Positions 4,515-57,762 of a stretch of 64,000 nt of DNA are shown here, one piece after another (position 1 is the stretch's first letter; each line of letters starts with the position of its first letter). Made by a program: the position numbers and the translations under genes. The stretch lies in NCBI GenBank assembly GCA_018266835.1, contig JAFDZP010000002.1:1215302-1279301 (forward strand). The letters are read 5' to 3'. The notes below the pieces were generated by a model. It was not told the DNA's origin. It searched no databases and worked only from the letters and a program-made list of their open reading frames with translations. The DNA is from Bacteroidota bacterium (GTDB taxonomy: Bacteria; Bacteroidota; Ignavibacteria; Tepidaquicellales; Tepidaquicellaceae).

Positions 4515-4976
4515 TTACTCTAACATAGTTTTCAGCATCCAGATAGTTGTCTCGTGATAATCAATTCTTTGAATCAGTAAATCCTGTGTAGGTTCATCGT
4601 CTGCGGCTTCTGCTGCTTTGAATGCTTCCTTTGCAGTCTTCACTGCCTTTGCATGGTCTTCCGCAAGAATTTTTACCATGTCCATTGCTTTCGGGATTTT
4701 TTTATCTTCTTTTATAGAAGCAAGAGCGGAGTACTCTGCGAATGTTCCCGGCGCATCTGCATCGAGCGAGCGGATTCTTTCTGCAATCATATCTGTCGAA
4801 GTCCATAAAGCGTTATATTGTTCTTCAAACATAAGGTGAAGAGTTCTGAATAACGGACCTCTTACGTTCCAGTGATAAAAATGTGTTTTTAAATAAAGCA
4901 CGAATGTATCGGCTAACAAATTTGATAAGCCTTCAGCTACCTTCTTGCTGTTGTCCGGGGTTTTTAACTTTGCCAT
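4515..4976 (-). CDS. dps: Dps-family ferritin-like DNA/iron protection protein
   Basis: This 153-residue Dps/miniferritin would form a dodecameric shell that oxidises Fe2+ with peroxide and stores it, protecting DNA under oxidative stress or starvation. The ferroxidase signature is visible: HW in FYHWNVRGPLF (His39), His in LHLMFEEQY, the Asp/Glu pair in TDMIAERIRSLD, and the late helix WMLKTMLE. The length is typical. A single-gene unit is likely, with its own terminator downstream and a 27-bp gap to the AAA ATPase gene upstream. Peroxide or stationary-phase control is usual for the family, but no operator could be identified here. Confidence 0.93.
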   Translation of the reverse strand: MAKLKTPDNSKKVAEGLSNLLADTFVLYLKTHFYHWNVRGPLFRTLHLMFEEQYNALWTSTDMIAERIRSLDADAPGTFAEYSALASIKEDKKIPKAMDMVKILAEDHAKAVKTAKEAFKAAEAADDEPTQDLLIQRIDYHETTIWMLKTMLE

Positions 4977-52863: not shown

Positions 52864-54435
52864 ATGATAAAAAAAATATTTAACACTTCTTTACTTATTC
52901 TTTTATTTGCAAGCTCGGTTTCCTTTTCACAAGAGAGCGACAATATAAAGGACGTTACAATTCTCCACTGGAATGATTTTCATGCAAGAAACCTTCCCTA
53001 CAGAGTAACTAAGAAAAACAATGATACCGGAACTGATTCAACCTATTACGTTGGCGGCACAGCGTCTATGCTTGGCTATCTGAACAAATACAGAACAGCA
53101 AACAGTCTTATCCTTAACGGCGGCGATGATTTTCAGGGAACTCCTATTTCTTCACTTACCCGAGGCAAATCACAAATAGAATTGTTAAATCTTTACAGTC
53201 TCGATGCATTCGTTGTCGGTAATCATGAATTTGATTATGGTGAACTTCACCTTGATTCTGTTTTAAAAGAGGCAAACTTCGATGTGCTATCTGCAAATGT
53301 TTTTCTTAAAACCCCAAACAGAACCATTGGAAAACCTTGGGTAACAAAAACTATTAATGGAGTTAAGTTCGGAATAATCGGATTAACAGCATTGGATTTA
53401 ATGACTCTCACAGTTCCTAAAAATGTTACGGATGTTCAGATGTTAAATACAGATTCGTTGATTAACGAAGGAATTAAATTCTGCAAAGATGAAAAGTGTA
53501 ACGTGATAGTTTTATTAACTCACATCGGTTTAGATAACGATAAAAAATTAGCAGATAAATTTTACAAAGATGTTGATATAATCGTTGGCGCTCACTCGCA
53601 TACGGCTCTTTTCAAGCCAACAATAAAAAACAATGTATTCATAGTTCAGGCAGGTTCGTATGCCAGATACCTTGGTAAACTTGACCTTAAAGTTGACGTA
53701 TCAAAAGATACAGTTCTCTCCGGATACGGCAAGTTAATTGAAACGGTTCTCGATTCTACTTCATTTGATATTCCTGCAGCTAAAAAAGTTGAAAACATGG
53801 TTGCAAGCATACAGGGAGATTTATTAAAGGTAATCGGAAAACTGAATAAAGACTGGTTCTCTTCGTATAAAATGGAATCCAATTTAGGTCAGTGGCAGGC
53901 TGATGCAATGAGAAAAAGATTTAATACTGACTTGGCTGTTCTTAATGCAGGAGGAATAAGAAAAAGTCTCCCTAAGGGTGAAATTACGGTGAACGATATG
54001 TGGGAAATAAATCCATTTGGCAATACAGTTGTGATTATAAAGCTTACAGGAAAAGCTGTAAAGCAGATGTTCAAAAATAATCTTCAGACTTATGTTAAAG
54101 AAATGGATGAGCTTGGTTCCAGCGACTTATCTATTGTATCCGGATTAAAAGTAGAGTACGACGGAAAAAAAGTTTTAGCAGGTGATGATAACTTTATAGT
54201 TTCAATAAAAACTGCTGACGGAAAAGATATAGATGATAATAAAATTTATACTATTTCAACAAACAATTATCTCGGCGGGCAGTTCAAAAAATATTACGGT
54301 GATGTTGGCGAAGAAATAATTCTCAACGATACAAATGTAATCGACAGAGATGTTATGATTGATGCAGTTATTGAACAAAAAGTTATTGAAGGCACTGTTG
54401 AAAACAGATTAATTGATATTTCAAAAAACAAATAA
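52864..54435 (+). CDS. UshA-like 5'-nucleotidase/UDP-sugar hydrolase
   Basis: This 523-residue exported enzyme has a signal peptide at about 1-22 (SFSQ). The N-terminal calcineurin-like metallophosphatase domain has ILHWNDFHA, LNGGDDFQGTP, VGNHEFDYG and ILTHIGLDND...VGAHSHT, the last with the GHSH-type His pair. The C-terminal 5_nucleotid_C domain (about 330-510) has NLGQWQADAMRKRF, LNAGGIR and NPFGNTVVIIKLTGK. It releases phosphate from nucleotides outside the cytoplasm for salvage. The following yggX gene starts 15 bp downstream, so cotranscription is likely. Confidence 0.92.
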   Translation: MIKKIFNTSLLILLFASSVSFSQESDNIKDVTILHWNDFHARNLPYRVTKKNNDTGTDSTYYVGGTASMLGYLNKYRTANSLILNGGDDFQGTPISSLTRGKSQIELLNLYSLDAFVVGNHEFDYGELHLDSVLKEANFDVLSANVFLKTPNRTIGKPWVTKTINGVKFGIIGLTALDLMTLTVPKNVTDVQMLNTDSLINEGIKFCKDEKCNVIVLLTHIGLDNDKKLADKFYKDVDIIVGAHSHTALFKPTIKNNVFIVQAGSYARYLGKLDLKVDVSKDTVLSGYGKLIETVLDSTSFDIPAAKKVENMVASIQGDLLKVIGKLNKDWFSSYKMESNLGQWQADAMRKRFNTDLAVLNAGGIRKSLPKGEITVNDMWEINPFGNTVVIIKLTGKAVKQMFKNNLQTYVKEMDELGSSDLSIVSGLKVEYDGKKVLAGDDNFIVSIKTADGKDIDDNKIYTISTNNYLGGQFKKYYGDVGEEIILNDTNVIDRDVMIDAVIEQKVIEGTVENRLIDISKNK

Positions 54436-54450
54436 AAATTTTAAACGTAT

Positions 54451-54732
54451 ATGGCTGAAGAGCGAATAGTACACTGTATAAAACTGGGAAAAGATTTACC
54501 CGGGCTGACTAAGCCGCCAATTTTAGGCGAAACCGGTCAAAGAGTTTACGATAATGTTTCAAAAGAAGCTTTCAAAATGTTTCTTGAACATTTTAAAATG
54601 GTTGTGAATGAGTACCGTCTCGATTTATCATCTCCGTCAACCGATAAAATATTCGAAGACCAGATGCAGGATTATTTCTTCGGAGCAGGAATGCAGCTCC
54701 CTGAAGAATATGTTCCGCCTACAGAAGAGTAA
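54451..54732 (+). CDS. yggX: YggX-family Fe(2+)-trafficking protein
   Basis: This 93-residue protein resembles YggX of Proteobacteria, a small iron-associated protein linked to protection and repair of labile Fe-S clusters. Aligning by eye: RIVHCIKLG (Cys9) matches the Cys-containing start of YggX, then PP...GETGQRVYDNVSKEAF matches its G-x-x-I(V)YD/N-x-VSK-x-A helix start, VVNEYRLDL matches the INE-x-x-L block, and the EEYVPP tail matches the E-GYVPP end. A hydrophobic insertion of 'PGLTK' type varies. The match is across the full length, which makes the call strong although the family is best known outside this phylum. Confidence 0.85.
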   Translation: MAEERIVHCIKLGKDLPGLTKPPILGETGQRVYDNVSKEAFKMFLEHFKMVVNEYRLDLSSPSTDKIFEDQMQDYFFGAGMQLPEEYVPPTEE

Positions 54733-54754
54733 AATTTATATTCTAATCTAATAA

Positions 54755-54774
54755 GCGCCGGTATTTTCCGGCGC
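54755..54774 (+). terminator. hairpin, weak terminator
   Basis: A 7-bp GC-rich stem (GCGCCGG 54755-54761 with 54768-54774) with a TATTTT loop is followed by ACTCTAC rather than a T-run, so it may only attenuate transcription between yggX and the phosphatase gene. Confidence 0.5.
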
Positions 54775-54793
54775 ACTCTACAAAATATTTCTA

Positions 54794-56269
54794 TTGGACT
54801 CTATATTTGATATAGATAAATATCTTACTTTACCCAAAGAGAAGTCTTATCAGTATTCTTTAGATTCTTCCAACATGAAGCTTCTAAAAGGAATGATGGT
54901 AGGCGTTATAATCTTTTTTGCTATCTCTTTTACTGTTTCTTTAGCTGAAAATGGGTTTAGCTGGGGGGCTATGATTTTGCTTGCAGACCTCATAATCCTT
55001 GTAAGCAGTCTTATTATTTATAAAAAGATATTTAACACCGGAAATATACGAAAATACGTTTACTATTTTTTTATTCTTCACGTCATAATACTCATAGGAA
55101 TTGGACTGGTTAACGGTAATATTACAAACTCGAAGAAGAACACCAATAAAAATAAGAAAAAAACCGAGCAAGTTGCCAAGGATACCGTCGTTAAAATCCA
55201 TTCTGATAGCACCGGTTCAACAAATATAAAAATAGGAACATCTGACGACAATAGTTCCGATATCTCACCGTTTATATTTTTCTTTTCAATAGCACTATTA
55301 GTATTCAGATTAAACCGCAACGATATTTTACGTTTGAATTTTATTTTCTTTATTCCCCCAATACTGGTTGATATTTTTATTTTAAAAAATGATGCCTTAT
55401 CCAATTTTCTTCCGAGCACTATAACCGCTGCTATGTTCATGGGGCTTGCTCTGTTTATTGAACACAGGAGAAAAAGAAAGTTCTTCAAAGAGTACGATCT
55501 GATGTATAAGAAGAATTACGATAACATCAGAATGAAAAAAGAGCTTGAGTATGCCCAGGCTATGCAGCTCTCAATGCTGCCGGAAAGATTTGCAGTAATT
55601 AACGGATTAGAAATTTCGGCGATATCAATTCCCGCGACAGAAGTCGGAGGAGATTATTATGATTACTTTAAATTATCCGAGGATAAAATAGGAATATTTA
55701 TTTGCGATGTATCAGGTCACGGAGTTGCAAGCGCACTACTGCTTTCAGGGATTAGAAGCTGTATGCATTTGATATTGGAAGAAACTAACGACCCAAAAAT
55801 AATTTTCACAAAACTGAACAGGGTTATACGAAAGACGCAGAGCAGGAAAATGTTCGTTACGGCAATTTTTGCAGTGATAGATATGAAAGAAAATAAATGC
55901 ACTCTATATAATGCAGGTCATCTGCCGCCTTATAAAATTTCAGGAGACTCAAACGAGATTTACAAACTGAAAAAGCATGGTATTACTCTCGGAGCAACTG
56001 ATAACATCTATGCTGACGAATCAAAAGAAGTGGTTATTGATTTCAAAAAGAGTGACAAACTGATTTTATACACTGACGGAGTTAATGAAGCACAGAATGA
56101 AAAGAGAGATGAGTACGGCATAGATAAAATTGAAGAGTTTTTAAATTCTAATTCCGATAAAAAGACAACTCAGATTATAGATGAGCTTGTTGCTGATGTA
56201 AATAAATTTACTCAAAATAAAATTCAATCAGACGATTTAACTATAATTGCAATTGAAAGGATAAATTAA
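54794..56269 (+). CDS. membrane PP2C/SpoIIE serine phosphatase
   Basis: This 491-residue protein has an N-terminal membrane region with several helices (about 29-105 and 155-220), a Lys/Asp-rich segment between them, a coiled-coil-like helix (about 230-260) and a C-terminal SpoIIE/PP2C domain. Phosphatase motifs are LEYAQAMQLSMLP, ATEVGGDYYDYF, FICDVSGHGVASALL, YNAGHLPPYK and LILYTDGVNEAQN, with the metal-binding aspartates. It would dephosphorylate an anti-sigma antagonist or another protein. The start codon is a TTG; no strong Shine-Dalgarno is visible, and an internal ATG at about codon 28 is a less likely alternative. cyaY starts 6 bp downstream. Confidence 0.9.
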   Translation: MDSIFDIDKYLTLPKEKSYQYSLDSSNMKLLKGMMVGVIIFFAISFTVSLAENGFSWGAMILLADLIILVSSLIIYKKIFNTGNIRKYVYYFFILHVIILIGIGLVNGNITNSKKNTNKNKKKTEQVAKDTVVKIHSDSTGSTNIKIGTSDDNSSDISPFIFFFSIALLVFRLNRNDILRLNFIFFIPPILVDIFILKNDALSNFLPSTITAAMFMGLALFIEHRRKRKFFKEYDLMYKKNYDNIRMKKELEYAQAMQLSMLPERFAVINGLEISAISIPATEVGGDYYDYFKLSEDKIGIFICDVSGHGVASALLLSGIRSCMHLILEETNDPKIIFTKLNRVIRKTQSRKMFVTAIFAVIDMKENKCTLYNAGHLPPYKISGDSNEIYKLKKHGITLGATDNIYADESKEVVIDFKKSDKLILYTDGVNEAQNEKRDEYGIDKIEEFLNSNSDKKTTQIIDELVADVNKFTQNKIQSDDLTIIAIERIN

Positions 56270-56275
56270 AATTTT

Positions 56276-56578
56276 ATGACAGACCAGGAATACACAACAC
56301 TCGTTACAGATGAAATGAAAAGGATTTATGACTATATAAGTGAAACTTACGGAGAGGATTTAGATTTGGAATTAGGCGACGGCATTTTAAAAATTACATT
56401 GGTTGATGACAGCAAATTAATTGTAAGCCGTCAGGCTCCCGTAAAACAATTATGGCTTGCAGCAAGACACGGAGGATTTCATTTCAATTATAAAGATAAC
56501 CAATGGCTTGATTCAAAATCAGGCGAGGAAATTTTAACAATGATGTCAAGATTTATTGACACATCATTTGAAGAGTAA
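56276..56578 (+). CDS. cyaY: CyaY/frataxin-family iron protein
   Basis: This 100-residue bacterial frataxin homologue binds iron on an acidic helical ridge and modulates Fe-S cluster assembly with IscS-type desulfurases. The fold is recognisable from the acidic N-terminal helix (DQEYTTLVTDEMKRIYDYI), beta-strand DLDLELGDGILKITLVDDSKLIVSRQAP (in parts), and the near-invariant SRQAPVKQLWLAARHGGFHF with Trp60, followed by a Trp77 and helix SGEEILTMMSRFI. These match E. coli CyaY almost motif for motif. Flanking genes are a SpoIIE phosphatase (6 bp upstream) and purE (20 bp downstream). yggX, another iron-linked gene, is one gene away. Confidence 0.88.
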   Translation: MTDQEYTTLVTDEMKRIYDYISETYGEDLDLELGDGILKITLVDDSKLIVSRQAPVKQLWLAARHGGFHFNYKDNQWLDSKSGEEILTMMSRFIDTSFEE

Positions 56579-56598: not shown

Positions 56599-57093
56599 AT
56601 GAAGAAAAGCAAAGCTGTAGTAGGAATTATTATGGGTTCAGACTCTGATCTTCCCGTAATGAAACAGGCCGCGGAAATTTTAGATGAATTCAAAATTCCC
56701 TATGAAATTTTAATCACTTCGGCTCACCGCACACCTGACTTAATGGCAAGTTATTCCCGGAATGCATACAAAAGAGGAATAAAAGTAATAATTGCGGGAG
56801 CAGGAGGAGCAGCGCATTTACCCGGTATGTCAGCAGCATATTCCCCTATCCCTGTTATAGGTGTTCCAATAGAAACAAAAGCATTAAAGGGATTGGACTC
56901 GCTTCTTTCCATAGCTCAAATGCCATATGGAGTTCCCGTTGCAACGGTTGCAATAAATAATGCTAAGAATGCGGCTTTACTTGCAGTGCAAATTCTTGGA
57001 TCCTCTGATAAAAAAATTCTTGCTAAAGTTATAGCGTTCAAAAATAAAATTAAATCAGAATCAAAGAACAAAAACAAGAAACTACAGAAATGA
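56599..57093 (+). CDS. purE: 5-(carboxyamino)imidazole ribonucleotide mutase PurE
   Basis: This 164-residue enzyme converts N5-CAIR to 4-carboxy-AIR in purine synthesis. Signature segments are [20 protein letters not shown] and [17 protein letters not shown], with conserved active-site Ser and His residues, and the later [31 protein letters not shown] (in parts). The C-terminal tail is Lys-rich. Class I PurE works with PurK, which is not in this window. The stop overlaps the next gene start by 4 bp (ATGA). Confidence 0.97.
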
Positions 57094-57716
57094 AAAAAAT
57101 TACCTTTCTCTTAATACTTTTATTTGCTGTGTCCATTAACTCTTTTGCGAAACCGAAACCAAAGAGTGAATTATTAAAGCTTGCCTCTTATATGGAAGGT
57201 TCGTTCTCCAGTCAGAAACAATCCGAAAAAGATACAAACTATTTTGATATAAGACTTCATATGAAAAGAATCTGGAAAGACAGAACAGACGGCATATGGC
57301 TTTACGTTGAGCAAGCAGTTGCATCTGCACAGCAAAAACCTTACAGACAGAGAGTTTACCATGTAACACAAATCGGAAAAAACAAATTTGAGAGCGCAGT
57401 TTACACACTGGAAAATCCATTGAGATTTGCAGGCGATTATAAAAAAGATAACGCTTTATCGGGATTAACACTTGACTCATTAAAATCAAGAGACGGCTGC
57501 TCAGTGTTTCTCACAAAAAATACTAAAGGTTATTATAAAGGTGCTACAAAAGGAAAGGATTGCCCGAGTGATTTACGCGGTGCTAAGTATGCAACATCAG
57601 AAGTAAAACTTTATAGAAACAAAATTGTAAGCTGGGATAGAGGATGGGGAGAAAAAGATGAACAAATCTGGGGAGCAACAAATGGCGGCTACATTTTTAA
57701 TAAACTGAAAGAGTAA
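57090..57716 (+). CDS. CpcT/CpeT-like (chromophore-lyase family) exported protein
   Basis: This 208-residue protein has a signal peptide ([20 protein letters not shown]) and a mature domain resembling CpeT/CpcT. It has [39 protein letters not shown] and [10 protein letters not shown] early, a middle [22 protein letters not shown] with paired cysteines, and a C-terminal [16 protein letters not shown]. In cyanobacteria the family attaches bilins to phycobiliproteins; here a periplasmic location and the absence of phycobiliprotein genes make that role unlikely, so it may bind another tetrapyrrole or lipid. It overlaps the purE stop by 4 bp. Confidence 0.8.
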
Positions 57717-57733
57717 AAAACAAATATAAAATA

Positions 57734-57762
57734 AAAAGGCGAAGCATTGCTTCGCCTTTTTT
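57734..57762. terminator. bidirectional rho-independent terminator
   Basis: A 12-bp perfect stem (AAAAGGCGAAGC 57734-57745 with 57749-57760) with an ATT loop is flanked by A/T runs on both sides, between the convergent CpeT-like and 171-residue secreted-protein genes. Confidence 0.9.

Follow-up and report, generated by a model that had tools for sequence, protein, structure and literature searches.

YggX proteins act in iron and Fe-S maintenance, protecting iron and Fe-S enzymes, and the Fe-S assembly machine ISC is also used by mitochondria. The mutual exclusion of ISC and the other machine, SUF, is reportedly rooted in the survey of Garcia et al. 2022. This exclusion has been stated repeatedly (PMC10631705, PMC11559095), with most bacteria possessing just one of the two (PMC11559095), and all prokaryotes with the bacterial frataxin CyaY have IscU, though not conversely (PMC4440780). 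Both relationships are thus already known, and the case described here conforms to the exclusion in that each genome has a single machine, exchanged from lineage to lineage. It differs in that the exchange is at the level of a genus, in an order that otherwise bears SUF, and in that frataxin apparently followed. In open-access texts we found no description of such a genus-level replacement of SUF by ISC, or of the position of cyaY reported below.

The window, i.e. the whole stretch of 64,000 nucleotides analysed here (G000:C2:1215302-1279301), comes from a bacteroidotan genome of 4.0 Mb that is 99% complete. The first-pass annotation had proposed that a YggX-like protein and a CyaY/frataxin homologue are encoded one gene apart, outside Proteobacteria, with a phosphatase gene between them and purE next, and all of this held when profiles and fold were compared. 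The yggX gene (54451-54732, plus strand) encodes a full-length Fe(2+)-trafficking/oxidative damage protection protein, which scored 101.6 bits against PF04362 (cut-off 27 bits) and 100.2 bits against the curated equivalog NF003817 (cut-off 74 bits), and its nearest solved structure is 2mzy (E 1.1e-20). The product of cyaY (56276-56578, plus strand) scored 81 bits against PF01491 (cut-off 21.3 bits) and 94.1 bits against the curated equivalog TIGR03421 (cut-off 53.25 bits); its AlphaFold model (pLDDT 92.1) matched best the CyaY structures 4lp1, 4hs5 and 1ew4, with TM-scores of 0.82-0.85. Like known CyaY, it is a full-length single domain of alpha-beta-alpha fold with the conserved QxWLA and an acidic N-terminal region, and its host genome encodes IscS/IscU. 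Unlike most CyaY, it terminates right after the second helix, being only 100 residues long and devoid of the short final GExVSF-like tail, and its gene lies in a yggX operon of a Bacteroidota host. The iron-handling dps mentioned in the same annotation is also present, as a gene for a Dps-type ferritin-like protein (4515-4976, minus strand).

The operon in which the two genes lie is older than the cyaY within it. It begins with a 5'-nucleotidase/UshA-like gene (52864-54435, plus strand; PF02872/PF00149), followed by yggX, a SpoIIE/PP2C-type serine phosphatase gene (54794-56269, plus strand; PF07228, 149.6 bits), and, beyond cyaY, purE (56599-57093, plus strand; TIGR01162, 218 bits) and, as the last gene, one for a CpeT/CpcT-family protein (57090-57716, plus strand; PF06206, 156.4 bits). 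When we examined 27 further loci of the window's family (f1), 26 of them from other genera, the 5'-nucleotidase gene adjoined yggX upstream in all 27 and the phosphatase gene came next after yggX in 24, often followed by purE and cpeT; this operon is family-wide and nearly missing from other Bacteroidota. Of 44 order genomes, 42 carry yggX, in one of them only as a contig-end fragment below the family cut-off, and across a phylum sample of 395 Bacteroidota genomes YggX occurred in only four, all of which belong to the window's order. In the YggX tree the order formed a single clade (99/96) in which each of its two families was monophyletic, so that yggX must be old in the order and vertically inherited. 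Compared with known YggX, the window protein thus belongs to a clade of its own restricted to one Bacteroidota order, and its gene shares an operon with 5'-nucleotidase and phosphatase genes. Divergent YggX-like proteins of about 65 bits were also seen in family f3 of the same class (L034, L091 and L092; genomes G044 and G054).

In contrast to the order-wide yggX, cyaY was detected in only 2 of the 44 order genomes, namely the window genome and that of its only available congener, both of which are incomplete (99% and 98%). In both species 6 bases separate it from the phosphatase gene upstream and 5 to 20 from purE downstream, whereas relatives that keep purE at the locus have only a short phosphatase-purE gap at this insertion point. 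The arrangement is no assembly accident, because the congener MAG SZAS-86 shows an identical gene order. Contamination was also rejected: cyaY lies on a 1.75 Mb contig and the isc genes on a 0.67 Mb contig, and the second species agrees. Conservation of gene order, a check that the first-pass annotation had suggested, therefore extends to one congener for the entire locus, but other relatives keep the operon without cyaY.

What distinguishes this genus from its relatives is also its Fe-S assembly machine. Both species have a complete ISC operon, iscR-iscS-iscU-iscA-hscB-hscA-sod-fdx, away from the yggX locus (about 633.4-641.6 kb of G000:C5 in the window genome), and SufB/SufD were found in neither. 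Two SufB/SufD genes are present in every one of the 12 relatives tested from the order, whereas true IscU was found in none of them; one (G016) has a SufU-like protein. IscS, IscU, HscA and HscB each pass at least one curated cut-off and the IscA-type protein passes the A-type subfamily cut-off only. Fdx, at 109.7 bits, is below its equivalog cut-off of 132.1 although its gene is in the operon position, and the Rrf2-family regulator that heads the operon scored 77.7 bits against an IscR cut-off of 207.55. The IscU of the genus has the three ligand cysteines and the LPPVK chaperone motif. We rejected the idea of a eukaryote-like, frataxin-dependent IscU with Met at position 108, since the residue is Val, as it is in all other Bacteroidota and Oceanospirillales/Kangiella IscU aligned. 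A replacement of suf by isc in place was likewise rejected, as five suf and two isc loci have no recognisable flanking genes in common.

The operon resembles that of E. coli (iscRSUA-hscBA-fdx-iscX) in the order iscRSUA-hscBA-fdx, but unlike the Proteobacteria operon it contains sod between hscA and fdx, its proteins fall in a clade of Bacteroidota, with family f11 of the same class as the nearest, and no IscX was seen at the locus itself. In a tree of concatenated IscS, IscU, IscA and HscA, sampled from Bacteroidota and seven Gammaproteobacteria, the genus grouped with f11 (96/96) and the Bacteroidota were set apart from the Gammaproteobacteria (100/100). The f11 operons have the same iscRSUA-hscBA-sod-fdx layout, and a sod gene within an ISC operon was seen in the window's genus and f11 but in none of the other ISC loci read. 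Because the tree and this unusual sod unite the same two groups, the ISC of the genus points to an exchange within Bacteroidota. The sod product is an Fe/Mn superoxide dismutase (L118:6719-7345, L120:4354-4965, L242:4284-4925), and between sod and fdx, at L118:4783-6078, lie genes for three small, related secreted proteins in tandem; a Pfam scan of two of the three gave no match.

The presence of ISC, together with the absence of SufB/SufD, is the likely reason why this genus has cyaY. In the phylum sample CyaY was present in 12 of 36 genomes with IscU called over the curated cut-off and in none of the other 359, so that all 12 CyaY genomes have true IscU (Fisher p 5e-14, uncorrected for shared ancestry, the events falling in about three lineages), a pattern that agrees with the published rule (PMC4440780). 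Nine other CyaY-bearing Bacteroidota were tested individually, and all nine have IscU and lack SufB/SufD, while YggX was found in none of them; CyaY thus tracks ISC, not YggX. Two observations stand beside this pattern. G054 of f3, which has SUF but lacks true IscU, encodes a weak frataxin-like protein (33 bits) and so seems to depart from the rule, and the true IscU of L243 (G253:C28), in a genome with a second, weaker IscU-type match, lies on a 3.6 kb contig that is possibly contamination.

Taken together, it is probable that YggX was first supplied by an old operon of the Bacteroidota (5'-nucleotidase, yggX, phosphatase, purE, cpeT), that the ancestor of this genus then lost its native SUF and acquired an ISC operon in its place, and that cyaY arrived together with ISC or later than it and was inserted upstream of purE, directly behind the phosphatase gene. 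The opposite history, in which the order inherited cyaY from its ancestor and every other genus lost it, is very improbable: the CyaY tree weakly unites the Bacteroidota sequences (83/46), as such a history would predict, but the loss would have to be repeated in 18 of the 19 order genera together with that of ISC, and all relatives tested retain SUF. As to the donor of the late-arriving cyaY, the same tree, built from 105 columns, placed it with Bacteroidota only at the weak support just given, and AU tests rejected neither Gammaproteobacteria nor f11 as its sister (p 0.19-0.36). The phylogenies of both proteins that the first-pass annotation had called for thus gave a single order clade for YggX but left the source of CyaY ambiguous. 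The donors of ISC and CyaY need not be the same, and one of the two f11 genomes with ISC (G257) is without CyaY. A recent import was rejected: since the GC and GC3 of cyaY and the isc genes equal those of their surroundings, any transfer was not recent.

The first-pass annotation had regarded YggX and CyaY as a single transferred or ancestral iron/Fe-S stress module, to which the phosphatase could add signal control. That such a functional unit was moved or selected as a whole, with the phosphatase as a signal-dependent switch, seems quite unlikely to us. The genes are one apart on the same strand in both species and both families act in iron/Fe-S maintenance; however, YggX is order-wide and CyaY genus-only, the two differ in their trees and hence have separate histories, and none of the nine other CyaY-positive Bacteroidota tested has YggX. 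The phosphatase adjoins yggX also where cyaY is missing and just belongs to the ancestral operon. Moreover, among 28 Pseudomonadota genomes that carry yggX as well as cyaY, the two were on different contigs in 14 and at least 82 kb apart in the other 14, so that none has them within 80 kb. Because these genes lie far apart and the nine Bacteroidota are without YggX, the arrangement is peculiar to the window's genus among the genomes sampled.

Within the late-arrival history that we prefer, cyaY could have come to lie one gene from yggX by chance, in a convenient operon and with no functional tie to YggX, a possibility that we put at somewhat below even. In other genomes cyaY lies at a distance from yggX as well as from isc, and bacterial cyaY is mostly outside the isc operon (PMC4440780). 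Against this, only some 5 kb out of 4 Mb is this near to yggX, which would give a chance of about 0.1%, a figure softened by the many other iron genes that would also look meaningful near yggX. What is known of the two families makes a functional pairing plausible: CyaY probably binds the IscS-IscU complex and tunes the delivery of sulfur and iron, while YggX would guard labile iron and clusters. After replacing SUF with ISC, the genus might even have put frataxin under the older phosphatase-linked YggX operon so that iron buffering and ISC tuning are co-regulated, which we consider rather unlikely; if true, this would be a link not made where yggX and cyaY lie apart.

Because Fe-S assembly is essential, a switch from SUF to ISC inside a single order offers a clean natural experiment in how a machine that cells cannot do without comes to be exchanged. 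Since the ancestral operon was retained and frataxin was gained in a definable gap, the genus also lends itself to asking at what point, and for what reason, frataxin comes to be of use, which has long been a question for ISC and mitochondria.

Whether yggX and cyaY are transcribed together may depend on a G+C-rich hairpin, GCGCCGG-loop-CCGGCGC (54755-54774, plus strand), found by folding the gap between yggX and the phosphatase gene. It is present in both species of the genus, at about -15.5 kcal/mol in each, and not in the relatives; it is a possible weak terminator or processing site, which may split the two genes into different transcripts. The cluster ends at a bidirectional, terminator-like hairpin with T runs (57733-57761). 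The phosphatase has a hydrophobic, probably membrane-spanning N-terminal half, and its TTG start is common to the window species and the congener. The CpeT/CpcT family is known from phycobiliprotein lyases, and here its member (57090-57716) belongs to a conserved operon of a Bacteroidota family.
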